From positions 1 to 64,000 of the forward strand of contig NZ_JAUYRO010000117.1 in assembly GCF_030696805.1 (NCBI RefSeq): a stretch of DNA of 64,000 nt, given 5' to 3'. Of the stretch, positions 20,775 through 58,618 are shown piece after piece. The position numbers and the translations under genes are program-made. The notes beneath the pieces were generated by a model, which worked only from the letters and a program-made list of their open reading frames with translations, had not been told where the DNA came from and searched no databases. Numbering within the stretch: the stretch's first letter is position 1; each line of letters opens with the position of its first letter. This DNA is from Methyloversatilis sp. (GTDB lineage Bacteria; Pseudomonadota; Gammaproteobacteria; Burkholderiales; Rhodocyclaceae).

Positions 20775-23573
20775 ATGAAACGTTCCCACTGGTCGCTGAT
20801 CGCAATCATCCTGTTCGCAGGTGTGCTGGCCTCTTTCTCGGCCCGCGCGGCCGATGAGGCCGGCCGTTACTATGAAGACGCACTGCTGCGCTACGAGCGC
20901 AAGGACGACGCTGGCGCGATCATCCAGCTCAAGAACGCGCTGAAGGCCGACCCGGGCATGCTGGCGGCCCATCTGCTCATGGGGCGAGCCGGACTCCGCA
21001 AGGGCGATTTCGCCGCCGCTGAGGTGGCCTTGCGCGAGGCGCAGCGCCGAGGTGCATCGCGCGCCGAGTACATCGTTCCGCTGGCCAATGTCCTGCTGGC
21101 CATCGGCCAGCAGAAAGAGCTGCTTGAAACACTGCAGCCGACCGATCTGCCTCCTGGAATCCGGTATGACTTGCTGCTGCTGCGAGCCCGTGCGCATCAG
21201 GAGTCGAGCCAGTACGCCCAGGCGATTGCGGTCATCAATGAGGCTCGCGCACTCAACCCGAATGCGCCGTCCGCGCTTGCACTCCACGCCCGCTTCGCGC
21301 TCGGTGCGGGACGCGCCGAAGAAGCCGCGACGCTGGCCGAGCAGGCGACCGGCCTCGGCCCCGCGGATACCGATGCCTGGACGGCACGTGCGGCGGTTGC
21401 CTATGCCTCTGGCAATTTGGCGGTGGCGCTTGAATACTATGATCAGGCGCTGAAATTCGCGGCCGACAATAGCGAGGCCCTGCTCGGAAGAAGCTCGGTA
21501 ATGATGGATCTCGGACGCATGGCCGAGGCGAAAGTGTCACTGCTGCAGCTGGCGAAGGTCGACAAGACCGAACCGCGCGCCGCTTATCTGCGCGCCGTGA
21601 TTGCCGACCTCGAAGGGGATCGCGACGGTGCCAGGAAACTGCTCGGCGAAGTCGTCAACATCATCGATCCGTTGCCGCGCGGCGCACTGACCAGTCGCTC
21701 CCATCTCGCGCTGATTGCCGGTCTGGCGCATCTGAGCCTTGGTGGACCAGCAAAGGCGAAAGAGTATTTTGAACTGCACGTGCGGTTTTTCCCGTCACAG
21801 CCGGCCGCGCGAAAGCCGCTTGCCTCGCTGCAGATCGCGGGCGGAGATCCGGCGTCCGGCATCGTAACGCTCGAACCTTTGATGCGCAGCGGTACCCGTG
21901 ATCCCGAAGTACTGTCGCTGATGGCGACAGCCTACGGCAAGCTCAAGCGACATGAGCGCGCCACTGAACTGCTTGAACAAGCCTCCAGGCTGGGCAAGTC
22001 TCCGGAGATACAGACTTCGCTCGGCCTCAGCCTGCTCGGGTCGAAGCAGACGCAGGAAGGCCTTGCGCAGTTGCGCGAGGTGGTCAAGGACGATCCCGGT
22101 CAGGGCCGGGCAAGCATGGCGCTCGCACTCACCGCGCTGCGCGAGCAGCAACCCCGGCGCGCAGCGGAGCTGATGGAAGAGGTGATCAAGCGCGAGCCGG
22201 ACAATCTTCCGGCGCTGAATGTGCTCGGCGTCGCGCGTGCAGCCGCGGGCGATTTTGCGGGTGCGCGCAAGGCGTACGACAAGGCGCTTTCGAAAGACAA
22301 GAATTTCGACAGCGTCAAGCTCAATCTGGTCAAGCTGGAACTCGCCGAAGGCAAACCGGCCGAGGCGCGGACCCGGCTCCTTGCGCTGCTCAAGGAAAAG
22401 CCTGACCACCCTTCCGCACTTTTCGAACTGGCGCAGCTCGACGTACGCGAGAAGCGGACGGCCGAGGCGTTGCGCGGCCTGGAGATTCTGCGCGACAAGC
22501 ATCGCAGGCACGTCGACGGCCAGATCGCGCTGATCGAGCTATACCTCCAGACGGGAGCGCTGGACAAGGCGCTTGAAGTGGCCAAGGACAGCAGTCCAAG
22601 TCAACCGGGCTACCTTGCCGTGCAGGCGGCGCTGGTCCGGGTTCAGCTTGCCCGCAGCGACGCAGCAGGCGCGCGCGCGACACTCACGTCGATGACGCGT
22701 GCGGCAGATTTCGACGCCGTTGCGCAGTACCGGATCGCGCGCCTGCAAATGCAGGCAGGCAACCCGTCCGGTGCCGCCTACAGCCTTGAAAAGGCGTTGC
22801 AGGGCGCGCCGGATTTCGTGCCGGCCAAGGTCATGCAAGGCGAACTTCTGCTTGGCGAAGGCGCACTGGACAAGGCCGATGCGCGCGCCCAGCAGCTCCT
22901 CAGAGCCGCGAAGCCGCCTCCGGAAGCATTCAAGCTGGCGGGGGACGTTGCGTTCGCACGCAGCAGGTGGGCTGAAGCGATCGACCACTACGGGGTGGCG
23001 CTTTCGAAGGGTGCAGGGGTCGATGTCGCCGGACGCCTGTACGAAACGCACCGGCGGGCCGGCAACGCGTCGCAGGCGAGGGCGTCGGTCGAAGCGTTGG
23101 TCAAATCGAGACCACGCGACATGGCGATGAAGCTCCTGCTGTCCCAGGCACAGACCGATGCCGGCCATTTGCGCGAAGCCAAGGCGACACTCGAAACCGT
23201 GCTGAAGGCCGGGGAATCGGCGCCAGTGTTGAACAATCTCGCCAATCTGCAGTGGCAGCTCAAGGACCCCGCGGCGCAGCAGACCGCCGAGCGCGCCTTC
23301 AAGCTGGCGCCAGGCGACGCCTTGATCCTGGATACGCTCGGATGGATCCTGGTGCAGAAGGCCCAACTCGATGCGGGATTGCGTCATCTGCGCGAGGCGC
23401 GCCTGCGAGACCCGGCCAATCCGGAAATCCGCTACCACCTGGCCTGGGCCCTGGCCAAGTCGGGACGAAAGGGTGAAGCGTTTCAGGAACTGGAGGCCGC
23501 GCTGCAGTCAGGCAGGTCGTTTCCGGGGATTGACAGCGCTCGCTCGCTCAGAGCCGAACTTGGAGCCGACTGA
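20775..23573 (+). CDS. prsT: PEP-CTERM/exosortase system TPR protein PrsT
   Basis: 932 residues made almost wholly of tetratricopeptide repeats after an N-terminal signal segment (LIAIILFAGVLASFSARA). This length and composition match the PEP-CTERM system TPR protein family (PrsT), which accompanies XrtA-type exosortase and exopolysaccharide loci; family members are often lipoproteins, but no lipobox cysteine is present here, so signal peptidase I cleavage near ARA-ADEA is more likely. Helical pairs such as AGRYYEDALLRYERKDDAGA recur throughout. A PEP-CTERM substrate gene follows; exosortase and polysaccharide genes are not in this window. Confidence 0.88.
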   Translation: MKRSHWSLIAIILFAGVLASFSARAADEAGRYYEDALLRYERKDDAGAIIQLKNALKADPGMLAAHLLMGRAGLRKGDFAAAEVALREAQRRGASRAEYIVPLANVLLAIGQQKELLETLQPTDLPPGIRYDLLLLRARAHQESSQYAQAIAVINEARALNPNAPSALALHARFALGAGRAEEAATLAEQATGLGPADTDAWTARAAVAYASGNLAVALEYYDQALKFAADNSEALLGRSSVMMDLGRMAEAKVSLLQLAKVDKTEPRAAYLRAVIADLEGDRDGARKLLGEVVNIIDPLPRGALTSRSHLALIAGLAHLSLGGPAKAKEYFELHVRFFPSQPAARKPLASLQIAGGDPASGIVTLEPLMRSGTRDPEVLSLMATAYGKLKRHERATELLEQASRLGKSPEIQTSLGLSLLGSKQTQEGLAQLREVVKDDPGQGRASMALALTALREQQPRRAAELMEEVIKREPDNLPALNVLGVARAAAGDFAGARKAYDKALSKDKNFDSVKLNLVKLELAEGKPAEARTRLLALLKEKPDHPSALFELAQLDVREKRTAEALRGLEILRDKHRRHVDGQIALIELYLQTGALDKALEVAKDSSPSQPGYLAVQAALVRVQLARSDAAGARATLTSMTRAADFDAVAQYRIARLQMQAGNPSGAAYSLEKALQGAPDFVPAKVMQGELLLGEGALDKADARAQQLLRAAKPPPEAFKLAGDVAFARSRWAEAIDHYGVALSKGAGVDVAGRLYETHRRAGNASQARASVEALVKSRPRDMAMKLLLSQAQTDAGHLREAKATLETVLKAGESAPVLNNLANLQWQLKDPAAQQTAERAFKLAPGDALILDTLGWILVQKAQLDAGLRHLREARLRDPANPEIRYHLAWALAKSGRKGEAFQELEAALQSGRSFPGIDSARSLRAELGAD

Positions 23574-23577
23574 GTGT

Positions 23578-23594
23578 TGTCGGATATCTTTACA
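23578..23594 (+). promoter_or_regulatory. Candidate activator site for sigma-54 promoter (copy A)
   Basis: TGTCGGATATCTTTACA. The same 17-bp pattern (TGTCG, A at position 9, T at 13, ACA at 15-17) occurs upstream of the other two sigma-54 PEP-CTERM promoters at 29793 and 57140. Its centre is 61 bp upstream of the -24 GG. A TGT...ACA dyad is typical of enhancer sites for sigma-54 activators. Role inferred. Confidence 0.6.
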
Positions 23595-23645
23595 ACACAC
23601 ATTTTTGCAGTTATCAAGTATTTGATTTCATTTGATATTCAAAAC

Positions 23646-23661
23646 TGGCCTCAATTTTGCT
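23646..23661 (+). promoter_or_regulatory. Sigma-54 (-24/-12) promoter of the first PEP-CTERM gene
   Basis: TGGCCTCAATTTTGCT matches the consensus TGGCAC-N5-TTGCW, with GG at 23647-23648 and GC at 23659-23660 exactly ten bases apart. It lies 47 nt before the start codon. Known PEP-CTERM regulons depend on RpoN and the PrsK/PrsR two-component system, which agrees with this site. Confidence 0.78.
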
Positions 23662-23707
23662 AATGATTTGCTGACAGTCAGTCTAGTCAATGACTTCCAA
23701 GGATCAA

Positions 23708-24487
23708 ATGATGAAAAAGAAAAGCCTGAAAATTCTGAGTATCGCTCTGCTGATCGGTTTGAGCGGTGCCGTATCGGCTGCGTCGACGAGCTGGTCATTC
23801 ACCTCCACTGCAACCTCGTCGGTCGGCGCCCCCGGCTTTGCGTCGCAGGTCGCCGAGTTTTCGTCGATGACCTACACAAACGGCGCGGGCAATTCGGTCA
23901 CGATGAACGCGTTCGCGAACACTGCGACGAACGCGAAGATCGAAGCTGCTTACCTGAACTATCAAGGTTCAAGCGGTCTGGGCGTGACCAGTCGTGACAG
24001 CAGCACGAACGACGAAGTGAATACGAATGGTACTTTGAACGGAACGCAGCACTCGTTCGATAACCAGGGTGCGGTCGAATCGATCCTGTTTTCGTTCTCG
24101 TCGGCTTTCACGATGGAACAGCTCGATTTCGGATGGACGACAAACGACTCCGATATCCAGCTCTATGCCTACACCAGCAATACGGCCTTCACGACCGGCA
24201 CGATCCTGACGAAGGACTATTCGACGCTGACCGGCTGGACCAAGATCGGCGACTTCACGGGCCCGACGGATCCGCGCCTTACGACCAACAGCACCTATTC
24301 GCGCTATTGGCTCGTCACGCCGGGGCCGGCGTCGGATAAGCTCGATTACGTGAAGCTCGCAGGCATCACCGGTTCGTACAAGCCGACGCAGCCGCCCTCG
24401 ACGGGCGTACCTGAGCCAGAATCGCTGGCTCTGGTGGGTGTTGCCCTTGCCGGTATGATCCTGACTCGTCGCCGCAAGTCGGCTTGA
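23708..24487 (+). CDS. PEP-CTERM sorting domain surface protein
   Basis: 259 residues. A signal peptide (KKKSLKILSIALLIGLSGAV, then SAAS) is followed by a Ser/Thr/Asn-rich secreted domain of unknown function and a C-terminal sorting signal: VPEPESLALVGVALAGMILT, then RRRKSA. That PEP motif, hydrophobic helix and Arg cluster are recognised by exosortase. The body is low in cysteine and resembles exosortase-dependent surface proteins. ATG 23708 (or 23711) follows AAGGA at 23698-23702; the longer reading from 23690 is unlikely. Behind a sigma-54 promoter. Confidence 0.88.
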   Translation: MMKKKSLKILSIALLIGLSGAVSAASTSWSFTSTATSSVGAPGFASQVAEFSSMTYTNGAGNSVTMNAFANTATNAKIEAAYLNYQGSSGLGVTSRDSSTNDEVNTNGTLNGTQHSFDNQGAVESILFSFSSAFTMEQLDFGWTTNDSDIQLYAYTSNTAFTTGTILTKDYSTLTGWTKIGDFTGPTDPRLTTNSTYSRYWLVTPGPASDKLDYVKLAGITGSYKPTQPPSTGVPEPESLALVGVALAGMILTRRRKSA

Positions 24488-29792: not shown

Positions 29793-29809
29793 TGTCGGTA
29801 AATCTTACA
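29793..29809 (+). promoter_or_regulatory. Candidate activator site for sigma-54 promoter (copy B)
   Basis: TGTCGGTAAATCTTACA, matching the motif at 23578 in 11 of 17 positions, including TGTCGG and TTACA. Its centre is 82 bp upstream of the -24 GG, about two helical turns further than in the other two loci. Role inferred. Confidence 0.6.
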
Positions 29810-29881: not shown

Positions 29882-29897
29882 TGGCACAGAACTTGCT
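29882..29897 (+). promoter_or_regulatory. Sigma-54 (-24/-12) promoter of the second PEP-CTERM gene
   Basis: TGGCACAGAACTTGCT is a full match to TGGCAC-N5-TTGCW, with GG at 29883-29884 and GC at 29895-29896. It ends 39 nt before the start codon and is the best of the sigma-54 sites in the window. Confidence 0.87.
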
Positions 29898-29936: not shown

Positions 29937-30659
29937 ATGAAGTACGCCCTCAACTCAGTTGCTGCGCTCGTTGCACTCGCCAGCACTGCAGCTTTCGCTG
30001 CGCCGATCACGCCGTCAAGTACCGCTCTGCAAACCCTGTCGGCTGCCACCTTTGGCGGATCGGGCATTCCGAATACCGCAGTACAGGCGCTTGCAGTGGA
30101 TCCGACGATGGCAGATGTAACCATCGGTCTGACCGCACATCAGCGTTTCACCGGCCCGAATCTGGTCAATAACGGTACCAGCACTTTCGAAGCCTCGACC
30201 GGTGTGTCCGCTAACCCGCCGTCGTCGCCTGCCGATCCCTACGCATTGTGGAACTTCGCGTTCTATGTGGGTGGTGACGACATTTCGAATTACGTGTTCC
30301 GGTTGTACTACGACTTCGATCCGGCCAGCGGCACGGACGAAGCAAATCACGGCGTGATCGAGTTTCTCGGTTCGGCGTTGCAGGGTGCGGCGATCCAGAA
30401 TTCCTTTAATCTCGGCATGGACTTCCTCGCCACGAGCATCCCCGGCGTCATCACCGCACCTCTCGGGTCGTTCTCGCCGACGGTCGAAGGCGAATACACC
30501 TTCGCGCTGACCGCCATACTCGAGCGGGTTGAGGTGGGTCGCGTGGCCATTCTGGTCGACGTCAATAACCCCGGCACGGCGATTCCGGAACCTGGCACGC
30601 TTGCACTCGCCAGCCTCGCACTGCTCGGCCTCGCCGGCCTGCGCCGTCGCTTCAGCTGA
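29937..30659 (+). CDS. PEP-CTERM sorting domain protein
   Basis: 240 residues: signal peptide (MKYALNSVAALVALASTAAF, then AAP), a secreted beta-rich domain with no recognised fold (containing YALWNFAFYVGGDDISNYVF), and the exosortase signal IPEPGTLALASLALLGLAGL followed by RRRFS. The start at 29937 is set by CAGGAG upstream and the signal peptide; the longer frame from 29817 would cross the sigma-54 promoter. Monocistronic, closed by a terminator. Confidence 0.9.
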   Translation: MKYALNSVAALVALASTAAFAAPITPSSTALQTLSAATFGGSGIPNTAVQALAVDPTMADVTIGLTAHQRFTGPNLVNNGTSTFEASTGVSANPPSSPADPYALWNFAFYVGGDDISNYVFRLYYDFDPASGTDEANHGVIEFLGSALQGAAIQNSFNLGMDFLATSIPGVITAPLGSFSPTVEGEYTFALTAILERVEVGRVAILVDVNNPGTAIPEPGTLALASLALLGLAGLRRRFS

Positions 30660-42613: not shown

Positions 42614-42679
42614 CGGAACAGGGTGCAACGGCCGACGATGGCCTGCACACCGGAGCGAAGCACCGAGGAGGGAGACGTC

Positions 42680-45160
42680 ATGACCTGGATATTGTTGCTG
42701 CTGGTGCCTGTGGGCATCGTACTGCTGGGCTACCTGCGCGCGCCGCTGCTCGTGAGCACGGCGGCGGCTGCCGCGTGGCTGGTGGCGGCCAGCCTGCATT
42801 TCGACTGGCCGACGGCGGTGAATGTCGCGGTTGCGCTGCTGGCTGGCGTGCCGGCACTGCTGCTGAACGTGCCGGCGCTGCGTCGCGCGCTCATATCGAA
42901 ACCGTTGCTGAAGGTGTATCGCAACATCCTGCCGCCGATGTCCGACACCGAACGCATCGCGCTCGAAGCCGGCACCGTGTGGTGGGAGGGCGAACTGTTC
43001 CGCGGCCACCCGGACTGGAAGGTGCTGCACGCCTATCCGGAACCGACGATGAGCGCGGAAGAACAGGCCTTTCTCGACAACGAAGTCGAACAACTGTGCC
43101 GCCTGTCCGACGACTGGACCATTTCGCACGAATTGAAGGACCTGCCGCCCGAGGCCTGGCAGTACATCAAGGATGCCGGCTTCCTCGGCCTCATCATTCC
43201 GAAGCACTATGGCGGCAAGCAGTTTTCGGCCTGGGCGCATTCGCAGATCGTGACCAAGCTGTCGACCCGTTGCTCCGCCTCGGCCGTCACCGTGATGGTG
43301 CCCAATTCGCTCGGCCCGGCCGAACTGCTGCTGCATTACGGCACCGACGCGCAGAAGGACCACTACCTGCCGCGCCTGGCAAAGGGTCTGGAAATTCCGT
43401 GTTTCGCACTGACCAGCCCGCAGGCCGGGTCGGACGCGGCGTCGATTCCGGACTTCGGCATCGTCTGCAAGGGGGAGTATCAGGGCCGCGAGGTGTTGGG
43501 CATGCGCGTCACCTGGGACAAGCGCTACATCACGCTGGGCCCGGTCGCCACCCTGTTGGGTCTGGCGTTCCGGCTGTACGACCCGGACCACCTGCTGGGC
43601 GACACCGAAGATATCGGCATCACCTGCGCGCTGATTCCGACCGACCACCCGGGCGTCGAAATCGGCCGCCGCCACTACCCGCTGAACGCGGTGTTCCAGA
43701 ATGGACCGAACTGGGGCAAGGATGTGTTCATGCCGCTGGACTGGATCATCGGCGGCCCGGCGATGGCCGGACAGGGCTGGCGCATGCTGATGGAGTGCCT
43801 CGCCGCTGGCCGCTCGATTTCGCTGCCGGCGTCGAACACCGGCATGGCCAAGCTCACCGCGCGCACTGTCGGCGGCTACTCGCGCGTGCGCAGCCAGTTC
43901 AAGACGGCGATCGGACGCTTCGAAGGCATCCAGGAACCGCTGGCCCGCATCGGTGGCCACCTGTACATGATGGACGCCGCGCGCCGCATGACCGCCGGCG
44001 CCATCGACCTGGGCGAAAAGCCCTCGGTCGTGTCGGCCATCGTGAAGTACCACATCACCGAGCGCGCGCGCATCGTCGTCAATGACGGCATGGACATCCT
44101 CGGCGGCAAGGGCATCTGTCTGGGCCCGTCGAATTTCCTCGGCCGCGCCTATCAGCAGATTCCGATCGGCATCACGGTCGAGGGCGCGAACATCCTGACG
44201 CGCAGCCTGATCATCTTCGGTCAGGGCGCCATACGCTGCCATCCGTACGTGCTGCGGGAAATGCGCGCCGCGCTGGCCGACGACACGCCGGCGGCGCTGG
44301 CCGAATTCGACGATGCGCTGTTCTCGCACATCGGTTACACCGCCAGCAATGCGATACGCGCGCTGGTGACCGGCCTGACCGGTTCGCACTGGGTCGGCGT
44401 GCCGAGCGGCGTGGCGCCTGAAACGCGCCGCTATTACCAGCAGCTCACGCGCTTTTCGACCGCCTTCGCCTTCATTTCGGACGCCGCGATGCTGACGATG
44501 GGCGGCGATCTGAAGCGCAAGGAAAAACTGTCGGCGCGGCTGGGCGACATCCTTTCGCAGATGTATCTGTGCTCGGCGACTTTGAAGCGCTACGAGGCCG
44601 ATGGCCGGCAGGCGGCCGACGCGCCGCTGATGCACTGGGCCATGTGGGACGCGATGTTCCACGCCCAGACCGCCTTCGAAGGCGTGATGTCGAACTTTCC
44701 GAATCGCGCCGTCGCCGTCTTGCTGCGACGGCTCATCTTTCCGCTCGGCCGGCCGTATGTGGTGCCGTCGGACCGGCTCGGCGGCGAGGTGGCGAAGCTG
44801 CTGATCGAGCCGTCAGCGACGCGCGACCGGCTGACCGCCGGCATGTACATCCCCGACGACGAACACGACCCGGTCGGCGTCATCGAACACGCGCTGAACG
44901 CAACCATCGCCGCCGAAGCCATCGAAGCGCGTGTGCGCGCGGCGCAGAAGAAGGGTGTGCTGAAGGCGCACGGGGCCGGCCTGATGCAGGCCGCGTTCGA
45001 TGCCGGCCTGATTGAGGCCGCCGAATTCGCGCTGATCCGCCGGCGCGACGAACTGCGTGACCGGGTCGTCCGGGTGGACGACTTCCCGCAGGATTTCGGT
45101 GCCGATGCGGTGAGCACACCGCTGGCTGATTCGCACAACGTCACCGCGATCGCCGCCTGA
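42680..45160 (+). CDS. fadE: Acyl-CoA dehydrogenase, FadE type
   Basis: 826 residues. The large FadE class, first oxidation step of long-chain acyl-CoA. N-terminal membrane segments (WILLLLVPVGIVLLGYL), then the acyl-CoA dehydrogenase core with ALTSPQAGSDAASIPDFGIV, TWDKRYITLGPVATLLGLAF and DGMDILGGKGICLGPSNFLG. The GEGEGL substrate region differs from the short mitochondrial type, as usual for FadE. GAGGGAG precedes the ATG. Stop overlaps the thiolase start by one base. Longer frame from 42623 is unsupported. Confidence 0.93.
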   Translation: MTWILLLLVPVGIVLLGYLRAPLLVSTAAAAAWLVAASLHFDWPTAVNVAVALLAGVPALLLNVPALRRALISKPLLKVYRNILPPMSDTERIALEAGTVWWEGELFRGHPDWKVLHAYPEPTMSAEEQAFLDNEVEQLCRLSDDWTISHELKDLPPEAWQYIKDAGFLGLIIPKHYGGKQFSAWAHSQIVTKLSTRCSASAVTVMVPNSLGPAELLLHYGTDAQKDHYLPRLAKGLEIPCFALTSPQAGSDAASIPDFGIVCKGEYQGREVLGMRVTWDKRYITLGPVATLLGLAFRLYDPDHLLGDTEDIGITCALIPTDHPGVEIGRRHYPLNAVFQNGPNWGKDVFMPLDWIIGGPAMAGQGWRMLMECLAAGRSISLPASNTGMAKLTARTVGGYSRVRSQFKTAIGRFEGIQEPLARIGGHLYMMDAARRMTAGAIDLGEKPSVVSAIVKYHITERARIVVNDGMDILGGKGICLGPSNFLGRAYQQIPIGITVEGANILTRSLIIFGQGAIRCHPYVLREMRAALADDTPAALAEFDDALFSHIGYTASNAIRALVTGLTGSHWVGVPSGVAPETRRYYQQLTRFSTAFAFISDAAMLTMGGDLKRKEKLSARLGDILSQMYLCSATLKRYEADGRQAADAPLMHWAMWDAMFHAQTAFEGVMSNFPNRAVAVLLRRLIFPLGRPYVVPSDRLGGEVAKLLIEPSATRDRLTAGMYIPDDEHDPVGVIEHALNATIAAEAIEARVRAAQKKGVLKAHGAGLMQAAFDAGLIEAAEFALIRRRDELRDRVVRVDDFPQDFGADAVSTPLADSHNVTAIAA

Positions 45161-46443
45161 TGACCTTATCCGACGTTTTCGTGGTCGATGGCGCGCGCAC
45201 CCCCTTCCTGAAGGCGCGCAACGCGCCCGGCCCGTTCGCCGCCGCCGACCTCGCAGTGGCGGCCGGCAGTGCGCTGCTGTCGCGCCAGCGCTTCCGGCCG
45301 GATCAGCTCGATGAAGTCATCCTCGGCTGCGCGGCGCCGTCGGCCGACGAAGCGAACATCGGCCGCATTGCCGCGCTGCGCCTGGGTTGTGGCGACCGTG
45401 TGCCGGGCTGGACGGTGATGCGCAACTGCGCCAGCGGCATGCAGGCACTCGATTCGGGCATCGCCAACATCCAGCGCGGCCGCGCCGATCTGGTGCTGGC
45501 TGGCGGCGTCGATGCGCTGTCGCGCGCCCACCTGCTTTTTTCCGACGCCATGGTGCGCTGGCTGTCGCAGTGGTACGCGGCCAAAGGCATCGGCGCGCGC
45601 GCGCAGCTGCTGACGAAATTGCGCCCCGGCATGCTGGCGCCGGTCGTCGGTCTGCTGAAAGGCCTGACCGATCCGGTGATCGGCATCAATATGGGCCAGA
45701 CGGCCGAAAATCTCGCTGCGCGCTTCGGCATCAGCCGCACGCAGATGGATTTCCACGCCATGCGTTCGCACCAGCGCACCGCCGCCGCGCTCGATGCCGG
45801 TCATTTCGGCGAAGTCGTCCCGATCGCCGACGCCGGTGGACGTATCTATATGGAGGACGACGGCGTACGACGCGATTCGTCGGTGCCGCGGCTGGCAAAG
45901 CTGCGCCCGGTGTTCGACCGCGCGCACGGCCACATCACTGCCGGCAACAGTTCGCAGGTGACCGACGGTGCAGCCTGGCTGCTGCTGGCGTCGCGCAAGG
46001 CGGTGGACGAACACGGCCTGACGCCGCTCGGCCGCATTGTCGACACCGAGTGGGCCGGGCTGGACCCGGCGCAGATGGGGCTGGGGCCGGTGCATGCCGC
46101 CACGCCACTGCTGCAGCGCCACGGACTCGGGCTGAACGATCTGGATGCCTGGGAAATCAACGAAGCCTTCGCCGCTCAGGTCATCGGCTGCATCGAGGCG
46201 TGGAAAAGCGATGATTACTGCCGCACCGAGCTGGGCCTGCCCGGCGCGCTCGGCACGCTCGATGAGTGCCGGCTGAATGTCGACGGCGGCGCCATTGCGA
46301 TCGGTCACCCGGTCGGCGCCAGCGGCGCACGCATCGTGCTCCATCTGCTGCATGTGCTGCGCCGGCAGGGCGGCGGCCGCGGCATCGCGGCCATCTGCAT
46401 CGGCGGCGGGCAGGGCGGTGCCATGCTGGTGGAAACGACATGA
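45160..46443 (+). CDS. Acetyl-CoA C-acyltransferase (FadI-like thiolase)
   Basis: 427 residues; cleaves 3-ketoacyl-CoA to acetyl-CoA and a shortened acyl-CoA. Active-site cysteine is Cys90 (VMRNCASGMQALDSGIA), the histidine region is DAWEINEAFAAQVIGC, and GGAIAIGHPVGASGARI with CIGGGQGGAML completes the site. The length and DRVPGW region resemble FadI. It overlaps fadE by one base and the following gene by four. Confidence 0.9.
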   Translation: MTLSDVFVVDGARTPFLKARNAPGPFAAADLAVAAGSALLSRQRFRPDQLDEVILGCAAPSADEANIGRIAALRLGCGDRVPGWTVMRNCASGMQALDSGIANIQRGRADLVLAGGVDALSRAHLLFSDAMVRWLSQWYAAKGIGARAQLLTKLRPGMLAPVVGLLKGLTDPVIGINMGQTAENLAARFGISRTQMDFHAMRSHQRTAAALDAGHFGEVVPIADAGGRIYMEDDGVRRDSSVPRLAKLRPVFDRAHGHITAGNSSQVTDGAAWLLLASRKAVDEHGLTPLGRIVDTEWAGLDPAQMGLGPVHAATPLLQRHGLGLNDLDAWEINEAFAAQVIGCIEAWKSDDYCRTELGLPGALGTLDECRLNVDGGAIAIGHPVGASGARIVLHLLHVLRRQGGGRGIAAICIGGGQGGAMLVETT

Positions 46444-48392
46444 GTGCCGCAATGACGGAAGGGCTCAAGCACTGGCGCCTCGAGCGCGACGCGGAGGGCA
46501 TCGCCTGGCTCACTTTCGACCGAGCCGAAGAGAGCGTGAATACGCTGTCCGGTGAGGTCATGCGCGAACTGGCTAGCGTGCTCGACGCGCTCGACGCAGC
46601 GCCGCCGCGCGGGCTGGTCATTCTGTCCGGCAAGGCGAGCGGCTTCATTGCCGGCGCCGACATTGCCGAATTCGGACAGGTGATCGATCTGGCCGGCGCG
46701 CGTGCGTTGATCGAACGCGGCTGGAACCTGTTCAACCGGCTGGCGGCCGTGCGCTACCCGACCTGTGCGCTGGTGCGCGGTTTCTGCGTTGGCGGTGGCA
46801 CCGAACTGGCGCTGGCCTGCAACCGCATCGTCGCAGTCGATGACCCCGGTACCCGCTTTTCGCTGCCCGAAGTGATGCTGGGCATCGTGCCCGGCTGGGG
46901 CGGCATGCTCCGCCTGCCGGCCCGCATCGGCGCGCCGGCCGCACTCGACATGATGCTGACCGGTCGCGCGCTCGACGTGCGGCGTGCGAAGACGCTTGGC
47001 CTGGTCGACGACATCGCCCCGGCGCGCCTGATGCGCGAGCATGCCGCTGCCGCCGTGCTGTCGGGCGCGCCGCGCAAGCCACTTTCACTGCTGCAGCGCC
47101 TGCTGTCCGGGCCGCTGCGCAGCGTGGTGGCGAAGAAGGCCATGGCCGGCGTGGCCAAGCGCGCCAGTCGCCGGCACTACCCGGCGCCGTACGCCATCAT
47201 CGACATGTGGCGCGATTTCGGCGGCAATGCGCTGGCCGTGCCGGAGGGGCATGCTTCATCGATGGGCGCGCTGGTCGCCCATCCGACCACCGCCAACCTG
47301 CAGCGCGTGTACCACCTGCGCGAGCGCTTGCGCGGCTTCGGCAAGCCGGAAGGCGTCGAACTGCCGGTGGTCCGGCACGTGCATGTGGTGGGTGCCGGCG
47401 TCATGGGTGGCGACATCGCGGCCTGGTGCGCACTGCGCGGTTTCCGCGTGACGCTGCAGGACAGCAGTGCCGAGCGCATCGCCCCGGCGCTGCAGCGCGC
47501 CGCGAAGGCCTGGGGCCGCAAGTTCCGGCGCGACCGGCGCGGCCTGCGCGCCGCGCTAGACCGGCTGGTGCCGGACGTGACCGGCGACGGCGTAGCGGGG
47601 GCTGACGTCATCATTGAAGCGATCTACGAAAACCTCGAGGCGAAGCAGGCGCTGTTCCGTGACATCGAACGGCGCGCGAAGCCCGACGCGCTGATCGCCA
47701 CCAACACGTCCAGCCTGCGCGTCGAAGACATCGCCGCCGGCCTGCGCACGCCATCCCGCCTGGTCGGCATCCATTTCTTCAATCCGGTGGCGCAGATGCC
47801 GTTGGTCGAAGTGGTGAGCGGCGCTGCCAGCGATCCGCTGGCCGTGCAACGCGCCGCAGCCTTCGTCGGCGCGCTCGACAAGCTTCCGCTGCCGGTGGCC
47901 AGTCACCCCGGTTTCCTCGTCAATGCGGTGCTCGGCCCCTACATGCTGGAAGCGATGAAGTGCGTCGACGAGGGCATCGCACCCGAGGTGGTGGACCGCG
48001 CGGCACTGGATTTCGGCATGGCCATGGGGCCGGTCGAACTGATCGATACCGTCGGGCTCGACATCGCCCTGGCCGCGGGGGCGCGGTTGACCGGCGTCGC
48101 GCAGGCGCCGGCCTGCCTGCAGCGGCATGTCGATGCCGGGCGGCTCGGGCGCAAGACCGGCAGCGGGTTTTACGAATGGACCGACGGCAAGCCACAGCGC
48201 GGTGAGGTATCGTCCGTGCCCGACGGCCTGACCGAAAGGTTGCTGGCACCGCTGGTCGCCGTCACGCGCCGCTGCGTCGAACAGCAGGTGGTCGCCGATG
48301 CCGATCTGGCCGATGCCGGCCTGATCTTCGGCGCCGGCTTCGCGCCCTGGACCGGCGGCCCGCTGCATCACGAACGCCTGAAACCTCACTGA
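46440..48392 (+). CDS. Enoyl-CoA hydratase / 3-hydroxyacyl-CoA dehydrogenase (FadJ/FadB order)
   Basis: 650 residues. Enoyl-CoA hydratase/isomerase domain at residues about 1-200 (GKASGFIAGADIAEFGQVID and CVGGGTELALACNRIVAVD) followed by the NAD-dependent dehydrogenase (VHVVGAGVMGGDIAAWCALR and NTSSLRVEDIAAGLRTPSRL with HFFNPVAQMPLVEVV). Middle two steps of beta-oxidation. ATG 46440 overlaps the thiolase stop; 46452 is an alternative start. Confidence 0.9.
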   Translation: MSAAMTEGLKHWRLERDAEGIAWLTFDRAEESVNTLSGEVMRELASVLDALDAAPPRGLVILSGKASGFIAGADIAEFGQVIDLAGARALIERGWNLFNRLAAVRYPTCALVRGFCVGGGTELALACNRIVAVDDPGTRFSLPEVMLGIVPGWGGMLRLPARIGAPAALDMMLTGRALDVRRAKTLGLVDDIAPARLMREHAAAAVLSGAPRKPLSLLQRLLSGPLRSVVAKKAMAGVAKRASRRHYPAPYAIIDMWRDFGGNALAVPEGHASSMGALVAHPTTANLQRVYHLRERLRGFGKPEGVELPVVRHVHVVGAGVMGGDIAAWCALRGFRVTLQDSSAERIAPALQRAAKAWGRKFRRDRRGLRAALDRLVPDVTGDGVAGADVIIEAIYENLEAKQALFRDIERRAKPDALIATNTSSLRVEDIAAGLRTPSRLVGIHFFNPVAQMPLVEVVSGAASDPLAVQRAAAFVGALDKLPLPVASHPGFLVNAVLGPYMLEAMKCVDEGIAPEVVDRAALDFGMAMGPVELIDTVGLDIALAAGARLTGVAQAPACLQRHVDAGRLGRKTGSGFYEWTDGKPQRGEVSSVPDGLTERLLAPLVAVTRRCVEQQVVADADLADAGLIFGAGFAPWTGGPLHHERLKPH

Positions 48393-48413
48393 CCCCTTTT
48401 CGAGCATCGAACC

Positions 48414-48809
48414 ATGAATGATTCCGTACAGACCCTGCCCGACGACCAACCGGCGCTGCGCCTGCTGCCGATGCCGCGTGACCTCAATGCCGCGGGCGAC
48501 ATATTCGGCGGCTGGGTCATGTCGCAGGTGGATGTGGCCGGTTCGATCGCGGCGATGCGCCGCACCCGCTCGCGTGTGGTGACGGTGGCGGTCAATTCCT
48601 TCGTGTTCCTGCAGCCGATCACCACCCAGTACCTCGTGTCTTTCTATGCGTCGGTGGCGCGGGTCGGCAACACTTCGATCACCGTCGATGTGACGGTCTA
48701 TGCGGAAACGGGTTACGAAAACATACAGATAAAGAAGGTGGCGGAGGCGACGTTGACCTATGTTGCAGTGGGCGAAGAAGGGCAGAAGCTGAATATTCCG
48801 AAAGATTGA
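48414..48809 (+). CDS. yciA: Acyl-CoA thioesterase, YciA type
   Basis: 131 residues, single hotdog domain: LLPMPRDLNAAGDIFGGWVM with the catalytic Asp in NAAGDIFGG, and VTVAVNSFVFLQPITTQY. YciA hydrolyses a broad range of acyl-CoAs. The gene is 21 nt after the dehydrogenase, in the fad operon. Confidence 0.9.
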   Translation: MNDSVQTLPDDQPALRLLPMPRDLNAAGDIFGGWVMSQVDVAGSIAAMRRTRSRVVTVAVNSFVFLQPITTQYLVSFYASVARVGNTSITVDVTVYAETGYENIQIKKVAEATLTYVAVGEEGQKLNIPKD

Positions 48810-48833
48810 CCGTTACAGCGCTGTACGGTCACT

Positions 48834-48865
48834 CCAGCCCCACTTCAGCGGTGAAGCGGGGCTGG
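48834..48865 (+). terminator. Strong hairpin between yciA and fadL
   Basis: CCAGCCCC (48834-48841) pairs with GGGGCTGG (48858-48865), with an inner CTTCA/TGAAG pair. A second bulged hairpin (ACCG...CGGT) precedes it at 48810-48829. There is no T-run, so this may be a partial terminator, attenuator or RNA stabiliser. Confidence 0.5.
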
Positions 48866-48893
48866 GCAACGCATAACCAGGCGAGGAGCTGAA

Positions 48894-50183
48894 ATGTCAT
48901 CACACAACAAATTTGCAGGTTCCGATCTGCCGTTTGCACGTCTGGCCGTGCTGATCGGACTGACGGTGTCCGGTCAGGCCATGGCGGCCGGCTTTGCGGT
49001 ACAGAACCAGAACGGGGCCGGTACGGCTACCGCATTTGCCGGTGCCGCCGCTGTCGCGGACGACGCCAGCACGATCTACTTCAACCCGGCAGGCATGACC
49101 TATCTGCCGATGGGGCACAGCATTTCGGTCGCTGGCACCCTGCTGCACCGGTCGCTGAAGTTCGACGACCGTGGTTCGAATGCGCTGGGCCCGTTCCCGC
49201 TTGGCGATGATGGCGGCGAGGGCGGTGGCCTGTCGCTGATACCGGCCGGCTACTACAGCTACGCGATCAACGACCGTTTCCGCATCGGTGTCGGCGTGTC
49301 CGCCACCTTCGGCAACAAGACCGACTACAGCACCACTTTTCTCGGTCGCTTCCAGGGCAATTATGTCGATCTGAAGGCGCTGAACATCAATCCGTCGGTC
49401 GCGTGGCGCGTCAATGACCAGTTGTCGATCGGCGCCGGCATCAGTTTCGTCAAGCTCGAAGGCGATATCCAGCAGCAGCTCCCGGTAGGCGGCTTCCCGA
49501 ATGCGCGCAACCGGCTCGAAGCCGACGACACGGCGATGGGATTCAATGTCGGCCTGATGTATCAGGTGACGCCGGCGATGCGCGTCGGCCTGTCCTACCG
49601 CTCGAAGATCGACTTCCGGCTCAAAGGCGAAGCAAGCGCGACCGAAGCCGGACTGGCGACCGGCGTGACCCCGGCGTTCGCGAGAATCGAACTGCCCGAT
49701 ACCTTTTCGGTGGCGGTGCATCACCAGATCACCGACCGCTGGGAAGCCATGGGCGACTACACCTGGACTGGCTGGTCGTCCTTCAAGTCGCTCGACGTGC
49801 GCAATGACACGACCGGTGCGCGCCTGACCAATCCGGAATATGACTTCCGCGACAGCTGGCGCATCGGCTACGGCGCGGCCTACAAATACACCGAAGCGCT
49901 GAAGCTGCGCTTCGGCGTTGCGTTCGACAAGTCGCCGGTGCATGACGAAACGACACGCACGCTGACGCTGCCCGACAGCGACCGCTACTGGGTGGCGATC
50001 GGTGCGCGTTATGCGCTGACGCCGAAATCGACGATCGATGTCGGCTACGCGCACATTTTCTTCGACCGCGAAGGCATCGACCGGCGCACCATCGTCGGCA
50101 CCACGCCGACCGGCCAGATCATCCGCGGCAAGTTCGACGCCAGCGCCGACCTGCTGTCGGTGCAGTACAACCAGACCTTCTGA
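48894..50183 (+). CDS. fadL: Long-chain fatty acid outer-membrane transporter FadL
   Basis: 429 residues of the OmpP1/FadL/TodX family. Signal peptide ends about residue 32 (SGQAMAAGFAVQNQNGAGTA), followed by the FadL hatch region ASTIYFNPAGMTYLPMG and beta-barrel strands to the terminal aromatic residue (VQYNQTF). It imports fatty acids across the outer membrane. Located between two beta-oxidation modules. Confidence 0.92.
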   Translation: MSSHNKFAGSDLPFARLAVLIGLTVSGQAMAAGFAVQNQNGAGTATAFAGAAAVADDASTIYFNPAGMTYLPMGHSISVAGTLLHRSLKFDDRGSNALGPFPLGDDGGEGGGLSLIPAGYYSYAINDRFRIGVGVSATFGNKTDYSTTFLGRFQGNYVDLKALNINPSVAWRVNDQLSIGAGISFVKLEGDIQQQLPVGGFPNARNRLEADDTAMGFNVGLMYQVTPAMRVGLSYRSKIDFRLKGEASATEAGLATGVTPAFARIELPDTFSVAVHHQITDRWEAMGDYTWTGWSSFKSLDVRNDTTGARLTNPEYDFRDSWRIGYGAAYKYTEALKLRFGVAFDKSPVHDETTRTLTLPDSDRYWVAIGARYALTPKSTIDVGYAHIFFDREGIDRRTIVGTTPTGQIIRGKFDASADLLSVQYNQTF

Positions 50184-50289
50184 TGCCTCACCGGCCGGCG
50201 TCCGCAAGGCGCTGGCCGATGCGCCGCTTCTGTTTTTACGGTGACCCGGCTGCACTCGGCGGTCGGAATTCCGCTTCCGGGAGACCGCC

Positions 50290-52689
50290 ATGTCCCGTCC
50301 CATCCCCCTTCAGTTCCGAATCCGTCGTGTGGCTGTGCTCGGTGCCGGCGTCATGGGTGCGCAGATCGCTGCGCACTGCGCCAACGCCAATGTGTCGGTC
50401 GTGTTGTTCGATCTTGCCGCGAAGGAGGGCGACCCGGACGGCATCGTCAAGCGTGCACTCGACGGCCTGAAGAAGCTCGAACCGGCGCCGCTGGCGACTG
50501 CCGACCGGCTGGCGCTGATCGAGGTCGGGAACTACGACCGCGACCTCGCGCGGCTGGGCGAGTGCGATCTCGTGATCGAAGCCATCGCCGAACGCATGGA
50601 CTGGAAGCACGGTCTTTACGAGAAGGTCGCGCCGCACCTGCGCGCCGACGCCATCTTCGCCAGCAACACCTCCGGCCTGTCGATCAACGCACTGGCCGAC
50701 GGCTGCCCGGACAGCCTGCGCAGCCGCTTCTGCGGTGTGCATTTCTTCAACCCGCCGCGCTACATGTCGCTGGTCGAGCTGATTCCGTCGCGCTCGACCG
50801 ACGCGGCGCTGCTCGATGCGCTGGAAACCTTCCTGACGACGACGCTGGGCAAGAACGTGGTGCGCGCGCTCGACACGCCGAACTTCGTCGCCAACCGGGT
50901 CGGCGTGTTTTCGATGCTGGCGGCGATGCACCACACCGAGCGCCTCGGTCTGGGCTTCGACGAGGTCGATGCGCTGACCGGCCCGGCGATCGGCCGGCCG
51001 AAGTCGGCCACCTACCGCACCGCCGACGTGGTCGGGCTGGACACCTTGCTGCACGTCGTGAAAACCATGACCGACAACCTGCCGGCCGACCCTTGGCATC
51101 GCTACTACACCGCGCCGGCCTGGCTCGCCGCGCTGGTCGGCCAGGGCGCGCTGGGCCAGAAGACGAAGCTTGGCGTGTATCGCAAGGACGGCCGGCAGAT
51201 CAAGGTGCTGGATCTGGCGACGCAGGACTACCGCGATTCGGCCGGCGCCATCGCAGACGAAGTGCAGGCCATCCTCGCCGAGCGCGACCCGCAGATGAAA
51301 CTGGCAGCGCTGCGCGCGTCGGCGCATCCGCAGGCGCAGTTCCTGTGGTCCGTCTTTCGCGACGTATTCCATTACGTGGCCGTGCATCTTGCAGACATCG
51401 CACACACCGCGCGCGACGTCGATTTCGCCATGCGCTGGGGCTTCGGCTGGCAGACCGGGCCGTTCGAAACCTGGCAGGCCGCCGGCTGGCAGCAGGTTGC
51501 CGGCTGGCTGCGCGACGACATCGCCGCCGGCCGCACGATGAGCGACGCACCGCTGCCGGCCTGGGTATTCGAACGGCACAGTGCGCACGAAGCCGGTGCA
51601 TCGTGGTCGGCGTCGGCCGCCATGGTGCAGCCGCGTGCATCGCTGCCAGCCCATGCACGCCAGCTGTTTCCCGAACTCGTGCTCGGCGAAACCCGGCGTG
51701 CCACGCACACGATCTGGGAAGGCGACGAGGTCCGGCTATGGACGCTGGACGACGCCGACGGCGAACGCGCACCGGTGCTGTCGTTCAGGAGCCGTATGTC
51801 GGCCATCGGCCCGAAGGTGCTCGAAGGCGTGCGCGAAGCCATCGCCCGCGCCGAGCGCGACTTCGATGCACTGGTCATCTGGCAGCCGCAGGGGCCGTTT
51901 TCGGTCGGCGCCAACCTGAAGCAGATCCGACCGGTGCTCGAAGCGGGTGACTTCAAGGCGCTGGATGGCGTCATCAACGACTTCCAGCAGGCGTCGCAGG
52001 CGATCAAGCACGCCCGGATTCCGGTCATCACCGCAGTGCAGAACATGGCGCTGGGCGGCGGCTGCGAATTCGTCATGCACTCGCCGCGCGCCGTGGTGGC
52101 GCTGGAAAGCTATATCGGCCTGGTCGAAGCGGGCGTCGGCCTGATTCCGGCCGGCGGCGGCTGCAAGGAATTTGCACTGCGCGCCTCACGGGCGGCCGAA
52201 GCATCGGCGACCAAGGACCCGATGAATTTCCTGCAGTCGGTGTTCCAGACCATCGCCATGGCGAATGTGTCGAAAAGCGCGCGCCACGCGCAGGAACTCG
52301 GTCTGCTGAAACCGGACGACGTGGTCGTGATGCATGCCGGCGAATTGCTGCATGTGGCGCGACGCAACGCGATCGCCATGGCCGACAGCGCCTGGCGGCC
52401 GGCGCTGCAGGCGTCGAACATCATGGTGGCCGGACGCAGCGGCATCGCCACGCTTGAAATGATGCTGGTGAACATGCGCGAGGGCGGCCTGATTTCAGCG
52501 CACGACTATCGCGTGGCGCGCGCGGCGGCTGTGGCGCTGTGCGGCGGCGAGATCGAAACCGGCTCGCGGGTGAGCGAGCAGTGGTTGCTCGAAGTCGAGC
52601 GCGCGGAGTTCGTCGCGCTGCTGCGAACGCCCGAAACGCAGGCGCGCATCGCGCACATGATGGACACCGGCAAGCCCTTGCGGAACTGA
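50290..52689 (+). CDS. 3-hydroxyacyl-CoA dehydrogenase / enoyl-CoA hydratase (dehydrogenase first)
   Basis: 799 residues with reversed domain order: dehydrogenase at the N-terminus (RRVAVLGAGVMGAQIAAHCA and NTSGLSINALADGCPD, HFFNPPRYMSLVELIPS), hydratase towards the C-terminus (QNMALGGGCEFVMHSPRAVV). This type is common in Betaproteobacteria and Pseudomonas, paired with its own thiolase, as here. About 106 nt after fadL; GGAG-type site before ATG. Confidence 0.9.
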   Translation: MSRPIPLQFRIRRVAVLGAGVMGAQIAAHCANANVSVVLFDLAAKEGDPDGIVKRALDGLKKLEPAPLATADRLALIEVGNYDRDLARLGECDLVIEAIAERMDWKHGLYEKVAPHLRADAIFASNTSGLSINALADGCPDSLRSRFCGVHFFNPPRYMSLVELIPSRSTDAALLDALETFLTTTLGKNVVRALDTPNFVANRVGVFSMLAAMHHTERLGLGFDEVDALTGPAIGRPKSATYRTADVVGLDTLLHVVKTMTDNLPADPWHRYYTAPAWLAALVGQGALGQKTKLGVYRKDGRQIKVLDLATQDYRDSAGAIADEVQAILAERDPQMKLAALRASAHPQAQFLWSVFRDVFHYVAVHLADIAHTARDVDFAMRWGFGWQTGPFETWQAAGWQQVAGWLRDDIAAGRTMSDAPLPAWVFERHSAHEAGASWSASAAMVQPRASLPAHARQLFPELVLGETRRATHTIWEGDEVRLWTLDDADGERAPVLSFRSRMSAIGPKVLEGVREAIARAERDFDALVIWQPQGPFSVGANLKQIRPVLEAGDFKALDGVINDFQQASQAIKHARIPVITAVQNMALGGGCEFVMHSPRAVVALESYIGLVEAGVGLIPAGGGCKEFALRASRAAEASATKDPMNFLQSVFQTIAMANVSKSARHAQELGLLKPDDVVVMHAGELLHVARRNAIAMADSAWRPALQASNIMVAGRSGIATLEMMLVNMREGGLISAHDYRVARAAAVALCGGEIETGSRVSEQWLLEVERAEFVALLRTPETQARIAHMMDTGKPLRN

Positions 52690-52699
52690 GGAGACAGTC

Positions 52700-53899
52700 A
52701 TGACACGACAGATCCAGGATGCCTACATCGTCGCCGCAAAACGCACGGCCGTGGCGCGCAAGAACGGTGCCTTCCGCCATGTGCGGCCGGACGACATGCT
52801 GGCGCACGTGCTGCGCGGCACGGTCGCCGCCGTGCCGGCTTTCGACCTGAACGAGATCGGCGATGTGGTCGTCGGCTGCGCGATGCCGGAAGGCGAACAA
52901 GGCATGAATGTGGCGCGCATCGGCGTGCTGCTGGCCGGCTTTCCGGTGTCGGTGCCGGGCATCACGGTGAACCGCTTCTGCGCCAGCGGACTCAACGCCG
53001 TGGCCGATGCGGCGATGAAAATCATGACCGGCCAGTGCGACATCGCCATCGGCGCCGGTACCGAATCGATGACCGTCATGCCGACCATGATGGGCAACAA
53101 GGTGAGCGTGAATCCGCGCGCCTTCGAATCTGATGAACACGTCGCCATCGCCTATGGCATGGGTCTGACCGCGGAGAAGGTGGTGCAGCGATACGGGGTG
53201 TCGCGCGAGGATCAGGACGCCTTCGCGCTGGCGTCGCACCACAAGGCGCTGGCCGCGATCGCCGCCGGCCGCTTCCGCGACGAGGTGCTGCCCTACACGG
53301 TGCGCAGCCATCTGCCCGATCTGGCGAGCAATACGGTACGCATGACCGAGCGCGTTTTCGACACCGACGAAGGCCCGCGCGCCGATTCGAGCGCGCAAGC
53401 GCTGGCGAAGCTGCGTCCGGCCTTTTCGGCGCGCGGCTCCGTCACCGCCGGCAACAGTTCGCAGATGTCGGATGGCGCAGCCGCCGTGCTGCTGATGTCG
53501 GAAGCCGCGATGAAGCGCATCGGCGCCGTGCCGATTGCCCGCTTTCGTGGTTTTTCGATCGCTGGCGTGCCGCCGGAAATCATGGGCATCGGACCGGTCG
53601 AGGCTATTCCGAAGGCGCTGAAACTGGCCGGTCTGGCGCAGGACGACATCGACTGGATCGAGCTCAACGAAGCCTTCGCCGCGCAGGCGCTGGCGGTGAT
53701 ACGCACGCTGGGGCTGGACCCGGCGAAGGTGAATCCGCTCGGCGGCGCGATCGCGCTCGGTCACCCGCTGGGTGCCACCGGCGCCATCAGAACTGCCACC
53801 GTCATCGCTGCGATGCAGCGCAACGAGGCGCGCATCGGCTTGGTGACGATGTGCATCGGCACCGGCATGGGCGCCGCAGGGATATTCGAGAAGGTGTGA
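52700..53899 (+). CDS. Acetyl-CoA C-acyltransferase (FadA-like thiolase)
   Basis: 399 residues. Active-site Cys94 (TVNRFCASGLNAVADAA), His region WIELNEAFAAQALAVIRTLG, GGAIALGHPLGATGAIRT and final Cys in MCIGTGMGAAG are all present. It begins 10 nt after the second dehydrogenase/hydratase, with which it forms the second beta-oxidation module. Confidence 0.92.
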   Translation: MTRQIQDAYIVAAKRTAVARKNGAFRHVRPDDMLAHVLRGTVAAVPAFDLNEIGDVVVGCAMPEGEQGMNVARIGVLLAGFPVSVPGITVNRFCASGLNAVADAAMKIMTGQCDIAIGAGTESMTVMPTMMGNKVSVNPRAFESDEHVAIAYGMGLTAEKVVQRYGVSREDQDAFALASHHKALAAIAAGRFRDEVLPYTVRSHLPDLASNTVRMTERVFDTDEGPRADSSAQALAKLRPAFSARGSVTAGNSSQMSDGAAAVLLMSEAAMKRIGAVPIARFRGFSIAGVPPEIMGIGPVEAIPKALKLAGLAQDDIDWIELNEAFAAQALAVIRTLGLDPAKVNPLGGAIALGHPLGATGAIRTATVIAAMQRNEARIGLVTMCIGTGMGAAGIFEKV

Positions 53900-57139: not shown

Positions 57140-57156
57140 TGTCGAACAATTTGACA
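57140..57156 (+). promoter_or_regulatory. Candidate activator site for sigma-54 promoter (copy C)
   Basis: TGTCGAACAATTTGACA, the third occurrence of the TGTCG-N8-T-N-ACA pattern. Its centre is 62 bp upstream of the -24 GG. The adjoining TGACA-GTACT-TGTCA dyad could add a second binding site. Confidence 0.55.
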
Positions 57157-57208
57157 GTACTTGTCACCGTGGTCGTTCAACCCGTTGTTCGAACAGACCT
57201 TGGCCTGA

Positions 57209-57224
57209 TGGCTCGAATCTTGCG
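57209..57224 (+). promoter_or_regulatory. Sigma-54 (-24/-12) promoter of the tandem PEP-CTERM genes
   Basis: TGGCTCGAATCTTGCG has the GG (57210-57211) and GC (57222-57223) at the right spacing and differs from the consensus TGGCAC-N5-TTGCW only at two less critical positions. It is 122 nt upstream of the first gene, leaving a long leader. Confidence 0.72.
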
Positions 57225-58572: not shown

Positions 58573-58618
58573 AATCACCTTGAACGTACGCAGAGCCCAA
58601 CTCCTACCAAAGCAAATG

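Follow-up and report, generated by a model that had tools for sequence, protein, structure and literature searches.

Analysis of the window, by which we mean the whole 64,000-nucleotide stretch of Methyloversatilis sp. DNA studied here, revealed three sigma-54 promoters, each preceded by a 17-bp box and each followed by a sequence encoding a PEP-CTERM C-terminus, as established by profile search. We interpret these sites, with a probability of roughly 0.85, as PrsR-class sigma-54 promoters, in which the contact made by the activator PrsR would be phase-locked to a grid of spacer lengths, and helped by a bend at an IHF-like site. What is new here is that the spacers between box and promoter are resolved into registers near 52, 63, 74, 85 and 96 bp, neighbouring registers differing by a single turn of the helix (10.8-11.15 bp), which suggests that the box sits whole helical turns from its promoter. 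The features concerned are the following, with TGTCG-N6-TTTACA as the working consensus of the box:

20775 to 23573, plus strand: prsT-type TPR gene (NCBIfam TIGR02917, 520 bits, cut-off 312).
23578 to 23594, plus strand: putative PrsR box 1, TGTCGGATATCTTTACA, an exact TGTCG-N6-TTTACA.
23612 to 23627, no strand assigned: IHF-like site of site 1, CAAGTATTTGATT at 23615-23627, also readable on the other strand from 23612.
23646 to 23660, plus strand: sigma-54 -24/-12 promoter of site 1, TGGCCTCAATTTTGC, an exact TGGC-N7-TTGC.
23690 to 24487, plus strand: PEP-CTERM gene 1, exosortase-dependent surface protein XDP1 (NF041927, 157.5 bits, cut-off 125).
29793 to 29809, plus strand: putative PrsR box 2, TGTCGGTAAATCTTACA, one mismatch to TGTCG-N6-TTTACA.
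29882 to 29896, plus strand: sigma-54 promoter of site 2, TGGCACAGAACTTGC, an exact TGGC-N7-TTGC.
29937 to 30659, plus strand: PEP-CTERM gene 2 (TIGR02595 above cut-off at 30582-30653).
57140 to 57156, plus strand: putative PrsR box 3, TGTCGAACAATTTGACA, one mismatch to TGTCG-N6-TTTACA.
57178 to 57190, no strand assigned: weak IHF-like site of site 3, CAACCCGTTGTTC, 7 of 9 positions.
57209 to 57223, plus strand: sigma-54 promoter of site 3, TGGCTCGAATCTTGC, an exact TGGC-N7-TTGC.
57346 to 58572, plus strand: PEP-CTERM gene 3a (TIGR02595 above cut-off in the genome search).
58616 to 59797, plus strand: PEP-CTERM gene 3b (TIGR02595 above cut-off), directly 3' of gene 3a.

The first-pass annotation of this DNA had described an activator box together with a -24/-12 element before PEP-CTERM gene 1, and both are indeed present, at 23578-23594 and 23646-23660. 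It had also reported that TGTCG-N3-A-N3-T-N-ACA recurs before two further sigma-54 PEP-CTERM promoters, which agrees with the copies at 29793 and 57140; counting both strands, this pattern occurs three times in the window, against a shuffle mean of 0.04, and none of 100 shuffles reached three. Taken alone, the sigma-54 pattern TGGC-N7-TTGC is unremarkable in the window (five matches, 4.57 expected), and the looser dyad TGT-N11-ACA shows a mild excess only (14, with 8.2 expected). Two details of the earlier description had to be corrected. First, the A at box position 9, taken as fixed, is common to the three window copies, yet it is found in only 4 of the 14 boxes before PEP-CTERM genes of the same genome. 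Second, the scan patterns that were proposed carry one N too many, as TGTCG-N8-T-N-ACA has no match in the window and TGGC-N8-TTGC has none at 23646. The spacers from box to promoter are 51, 72 and 52 bp at sites 1, 2 and 3, respectively.

Box 1 lies four bases after the stop codon of the prsT-type gene, whose protein has close relatives in Methyloversatilis genomes at 96 and 85% identity. Box 1 is conserved, with a 51-bp spacer in each case, in three near-orthologous loci (L051, L052 and L053), and box 2, with an identical 72-bp spacer, is also found in L051. PEP-CTERM gene 1, with its likely start at the ATG at 23711, also exceeds the cut-off of TIGR02595 (24.7 bits, cut-off 16), while the other PEP-CTERM family matches of gene 2, and the subfamily matches of gene 3a, are all below their cut-offs. 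Genes 3a and 3b (57346-59797) form a similar-looking PEP-CTERM pair with a single box, upstream of 3a, and may constitute a two-gene operon; a box of its own was not found for gene 3b, as the best pair upstream of it scores 14.46 and shuffles of that region reach 15.85. Elsewhere in the window, positions 42623-53899 hold a fatty-acid oxidation cluster with FadE-, FadB-, FadA- and FadL-like products, and a prophage considered for the left end was unsupported, as eight ORFs scanned there gave one weak match of unknown function.

The same arrangement recurs elsewhere in the genome to which the window belongs (G000). A profile search of this genome returned one PrsR protein above cut-off (TIGR02915, 726.5 bits, contig C98), which is encoded beside PrsK (TIGR02916, 777 bits), PrsT (TIGR02917, 801 bits) and exosortase-A-associated genes. 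There are two prsT-type genes in this genome, one in the window (20775-23573) and one adjoining prsR and prsK (L114:6153-8948). PEP-CTERM places above the TIGR02595 cut-off numbered 78, of 83 found, and we scored the upstream regions of 80 of the 83, namely, these 78 and the next two. Box-promoter pairs with a score of at least 17 occur in 11 of the 80 regions, with none on the reverse strand and a shuffle expectation of 0.05; at a score of at least 16 they occur in 14, with one on the reverse strand and an expectation of 0.75. Within these regions, 12 boxes are oriented forward and none in reverse. The enrichment of 11 of 80 over 0.05 in shuffles provides good support for the earlier proposal of an activator site and sigma-54 promoter common to the PEP-CTERM regulon.

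Exact copies of TGTCG-N6-TTTACA number 12 genome-wide, and 10 of them precede PEP-CTERM genes, nine beside TIGR02595 places and the tenth, on contig C47, before a PEP-CTERM protein missed by this profile. This boxed gene, unreported by TIGR02595, lies in L129 (G000:C47:927-1056), and the figure of about 80 PEP-CTERM genes is therefore a lower bound. The remaining exact copies are one on C3, before a kinase-like gene as read by eye and with a poor promoter match, and one at C113:32085, which lacks both a sigma-54 site and a convincing downstream gene. We consider 14 boxed PEP-CTERM promoters credible, namely, the 11 with a score of at least 17 plus C29:9220, C27:62366 and C47. In the boxed PEP-CTERM gene behind L127 (G000:C27:61054-61159), the signal-peptide frame, as read by eye, seems to open at ATA after GGAG, with no usual start; the start codon may be atypical, or the sequence may have been altered by mutation or misassembly. 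The earlier expectation was that the motif could allow the whole regulon to be predicted, but it does not predict the PEP-CTERM set as a whole: only a minority of these genes can be called from the box, about 14 of about 80 having a credible one.

Pattern searches of the genome gave a comparable picture. A relaxed search, GTCG-N7-T-N-ACA followed by N49-79 and GG-N9-TGC, returned 20 matches, against four for the reversed pattern, and the 12 that were assigned comprise 11 preceding PEP-CTERM genes and one preceding the C113 gene. A strict one, TGT-N9-T-N-ACA followed by N30-60 and TGGC-N7-TTGC, returned only two matches genome-wide, both of them window sites. The wrong-spacing control, GG-N8-TGC, gave six and five matches in two genome scans (reversed, six and two), and no window site.

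We extended the analysis to 150 genomes of the family, searching TGTCG-N6-TTTACA followed by GG-N9-TGC in three gap ranges, with the following results. First, at gaps of 47-77 the search returned 243 matches, spread over 62 genomes, and three with the reversed pattern. Second, gaps of 78-108 gave 77 matches, and one reversed. Third, gaps of 16-46 gave 23 matches, five reversed, and no clear register. We judged the spacers of 15-45 bp to be mostly chance matches beside real boxes, with the exception of L250, where a chance match had been taken for the promoter and the real spacer is 41 bp, and of a recurring 45-bp match. An exact box before a kinase-like gene was seen in L001 (G000:C3:2583-2659), at G005:C1:1512142-1512218 and at G070:C14:43983-44059, in three genomes of the genus; the only promoter candidate in all three is a poor GG-N9-TGC match. 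It stands at 45 bp, away from the grid, and is perhaps no promoter at all.

Between box and promoter, we scored matches to the IHF consensus, YAANNNNTTGATW, at nine positions. In site 1 all nine positions match, in both orientations, and the forward match opens 31 bp before the T of TGGC. Site 3 has a match at the same distance of 31 bp, with 7 of 9 positions, a level that is common by chance, and in site 2 the best match is also 7 of 9, with none at the usual offsets. For the family, 121 of 150 listed sites were hand-picked without a written rule, with G005 excluded, and limited to four per genome, leaving 95 from 32 genomes, of which the first 80 in shuffled order were used. Matches of at least 8 of 9 lie in the spacer of 44 of these 80 promoters, against a mean of 8.0 and a maximum of 15 in dinucleotide shuffles; outside the spacer, the 63-bp stretch ahead of the box holds such a match in none of the 80 promoters, and the 63-bp stretch following the promoter in five.

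It is possible, but we think doubtful, that this conserved element is plain A/T-rich DNA or intrinsic curvature rather than an IHF site. Part of the signal, at positions -21 to -19 before the promoter, is simply A/T-rich, 36 of the 80 spacers have no match of at least 8 of 9, and site 2 of the window has weak matches only. However, 11 of the 80 spacers hold a complete 9 of 9 match, dinucleotide shuffles yielding 0.5, and the good matches of the family sample cluster at fixed offsets from the promoter, -32/-31 in forward and -20/-19 in reverse orientation. A bend in the spacer would be in keeping with the layout reported at other RpoN promoters (PMC7962754).

The distribution of the box follows that of PrsR. 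Above the profile cut-off, PrsR is present in 69 of the 150 genomes; box (mid range) and PrsR are both found in 59 genomes, the box only in three, PrsR only in 10 and neither in 78, so that 59 of 62 genomes with the box have PrsR and 59 of 69 genomes with PrsR have the box (Fisher p 3e-27, a statistic that ignores kinship). Three of the 10 genomes with PrsR only have a box at longer spacing. At the threshold used, PrsR is absent from the three box-only genomes, G004, G036 and G089, and from two with a long-spacing box, G035 and G036. Genome G036 is complete and has seven box-promoter matches, with no PrsR at E 1e-140 among ten candidates scored; its PrsR may be broken, diverged, or missed since only ten candidates were scored.

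These genomes without a PrsR match at the threshold used are what would be expected if another NtrC-type activator, encoded in the same genome, bound the box instead of PrsR. Such activators seem to be available, as 17 further TIGR02915 matches of 240-366 bits, below the cut-off of 502.6, come from frames of 457-770 amino acids, as expected of other sigma-54 activators. We nevertheless find this alternative improbable, given that the box tracks PrsR over the 150 genomes, with 13 discordant, kinship being ignored, and that the same link was obtained by phylogenetic profile in 2006 (PMC1569441).

To describe the spacers we used 150 listed sites of the 243 mid-range matches and the 77 long-range matches, that is, 227 sites from 53 genomes. 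Among these listed sites the spacers peak at means of 52.3, 63.0, 73.9, 84.7 and 96.1 bp, with none at 55-60 or 68-70 bp. For a period of 11.05 bp the Rayleigh length reaches 0.73, the maximum of 500 uniform simulations being 0.21. With genomes resampled, fitting spacer on register gave a step with a 95% bootstrap interval of 10.78-11.15 bp (median 10.91), and the Rayleigh optimum fell at 10.90-11.15 bp (median 11.05). Within 2.5 bp of the grid lie 209 of the 227 listed sites, against 103 by chance, with period and phase taken from the same data, and 18 lie beyond it, of which at least one (L250) is the chance match mentioned above. Decoys of wrong spacing or reversed, taken from the same stretches, showed no phase (R 0.15-0.34), in small samples of 5, 18 and 8. 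That the grid merely reflects the shared ancestry of a few promoters, and not selection for helical phase, is very improbable: near orthologues do share their spacing, as with the 51 bp of the window, L051, L052 and L053, but when one random site per genome was taken (36 genomes, mid range only) the median R was 0.79, and at least 0.64 in 1000 draws, the 88 downstream proteins include only five cross-genome orthologue-like pairs, with spacer differences of 0, 0, 2, 10 and 11 bp, and copying of a single promoter would hardly have produced spacers in five registers.

The genome of the window shows the same phase, as none of its 14 spacers departs from the grid by more than 2.2 bp, some of them being also among the 227. 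It uses the registers of about 51, 74 and 95 bp, and none near 63 bp, the commonest in the family. Steps of two turns (21 bp), which this genome alone had suggested, were ruled out by the family, where 63 bp is the commonest spacer. As for the size of the step, in vivo helical repeat fits to three lac-loop data sets gave 11.60, 11.08 and 10.95 bp per turn (PMC1762422), and therefore a step near 11 rather than 10.5 bp is plausible for cellular DNA; the grid step is near 11.08 and 10.95, not 11.60 (PMC1762422).

The genes behind these promoters are for the most part of the expected class. Of the 80 family promoters, 51 have a PEP-CTERM-like tail at the end of their longest downstream ORF, whereas on the other strand this holds for 1 of 54; a looser rule, giving 57 of 80, was set aside because it admitted one or more false cases (L224). 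Some of the 29 misses are ORFs truncated where the stretch or contig ends (in L186 and L240 within such a tail), three carry the PEP-CTERM-like tail in a different ORF, and others have variant tails, such as that of L197. They also include a FeeM-like N-acyl amino acid synthase (L182:239-1537, Pfam 153 bits) with a box spacer of 62 bp, and a title in a reference list links N-acyl amino acid synthases to the PEP-CTERM system.

In addition, the box precedes an unnamed protein family without PEP-CTERM, found in L177, L185, L219, L224 and L247, which are five of the 29 misses, and as the C113 product of the window's own genome (L169, G000:C113:30157-30258), whose box has a spacer of 71 bp, 3 bp off the grid. 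All members have two arginines near the N-terminus and YL near the C-terminus, with TTW after the YL in three of six, and an alignment of four members with the C113 product has 13 invariant columns; L224 and L219 are 61% identical. Neither Pfam nor NCBIfam gave a match at 0.01 for the four of five family members that were scanned.

From these sequence data we infer binding of PrsR and IHF, a DNA loop, and phosphorylation of PrsR by PrsK, as follows. PrsK would phosphorylate PrsR, and phosphorylated PrsR would bind the 17-bp box and contact the RNA polymerase-sigma-54 complex waiting at -24/-12. This contact would need box and promoter on the same helical face, and the spacer would therefore be held at about 52, 63, 74, 85 or 96 bp. 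The IHF-like site, whose centre lies some 14 or 26 bp before the promoter, may bend the DNA and help to close the short loop. PrsR thus probably acts from a single box, in one orientation and on the helical phase of the promoter, and is probably aided by an IHF bend; a search for tandem boxes gave 41 extra box-like sites against 38 in shuffles, which is not above chance.

It is tempting to go further, and we think it likely, though less firmly than the mechanism itself, that selection has kept the PrsR box in whole-turn registers (about 52-96 bp, step 10.8-11.15 bp), that the regulon can be taken as an evolutionary reading of the in vivo helical repeat, that the mean spacer published in 2006 hides an integer rule, and that PrsR also controls the unnamed, secreted-looking family without PEP-CTERM. 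In practical terms, the box allows part of the PEP-CTERM regulon to be called from sequence, and the spacer rule tightens such calls, as a box at 57 or 69 bp becomes doubtful. Should experiments confirm the phase lock, nature would have left here a clear record of how a sigma-54 enhancer is helically phased, and the lock could serve to sort real from chance sites in biofilm and floc-forming bacteria.

The box itself is not new. Of 167 proteobacterial PEP-CTERM genes, 99 were described by Haft et al. (2006) as preceded by a 17-nucleotide motif 1 ending in TTTACA, a spacer of mean 62.8 nucleotides (SD 10.6, range 32-92) and a motif 2 of sigma-54 type; they predicted that PrsR binds motif 1, and proposed it as the activator (PMC1569441). 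The first-pass annotation had supposed that no defined operator is commonly cited, and since the box class, with PrsR as its predicted activator, was published in 2006, this claim of novelty falls (PMC1569441). The name given to PrsR by NCBI is PEP-CTERM-box response regulator. The window boxes are members of this published cis-regulatory class: motif 1 has its TTTACA 3' end (box 1 exact, boxes 2 and 3 with one mismatch); the spacers of 51, 72 and 52 bp fall within 32-92 nucleotides; a sigma-54 type motif 2 (-24 GG, -12 GC) is found at all three sites; their position is noncoding and before a PEP-CTERM gene, with TIGR02595 matches 3' of all three; and PrsR, PrsK and PrsT are encoded in the genome, as with the element of 2006. 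Three other sites of this genome, with spacers of 94, 95 and 98, exceed the published 92. The difference lies in the spacer, which was given as a mean and range in 2006, whereas here it is resolved into one-turn registers with an IHF-like site in between. The main text of Haft et al. contains neither "IHF" nor "integration host", and "helical" once, in the title of a reference (PMC1569441).

Later work on single systems points in the same direction. The pepA gene of Aquincola tertiaricarbonis RN12, reported in 2023, is RpoN1-dependent, with a predicted enhancer upstream (PMC9850573). As in the window, a PEP-CTERM gene with a -24/-12 promoter, mapped in that case, adjoins prsT, but the genus is another one and prsT follows pepA there, whereas it precedes the PEP-CTERM gene here (PMC9850573). 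In another bacterium, DVUA0057, a predicted PEP-CTERM regulator, bound five of five predicted PEP-CTERM targets in a DNA-affinity assay published in 2011; according to a figure legend of that article, there were no validated binding-site motifs for its group (PMC3333781). Targeted searches of the open-licence PubMed Central literature returned no report of phasing or of IHF at PEP-CTERM promoters; where integration host factor and PEP-CTERM are named in the same paper, the passages concerned are unrelated.

Among better known sigma-54 enhancers, the NifA-type upstream activator sequence, TGT-N10-ACA, is not matched, as the dyad here is TGT-N11-ACA. The nifH promoter is an example of the IHF-assisted type. 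Promoters of this type and the sites described here share the order of enhancer, IHF-like site and -24/-12 promoter (PMC7962754), and here there is one 17-bp box per promoter, unlike that type. A precedent for the spacing comes from the Vibrio qrr enhancers, where tolerance to insertions or deletions of 10-11 bp was tested on 61 qrr genes (PMC4740811); these are other genes in another genus, whereas here five discrete registers extend over 53 genomes. Because the helical tolerance of sigma-54 enhancers had been tested earlier on Vibrio qrr (PMC4740811), and other enhancers of the sigma-54 type are already known to involve phasing and IHF, the grid is a clear new case of helical phasing, and not a new principle.
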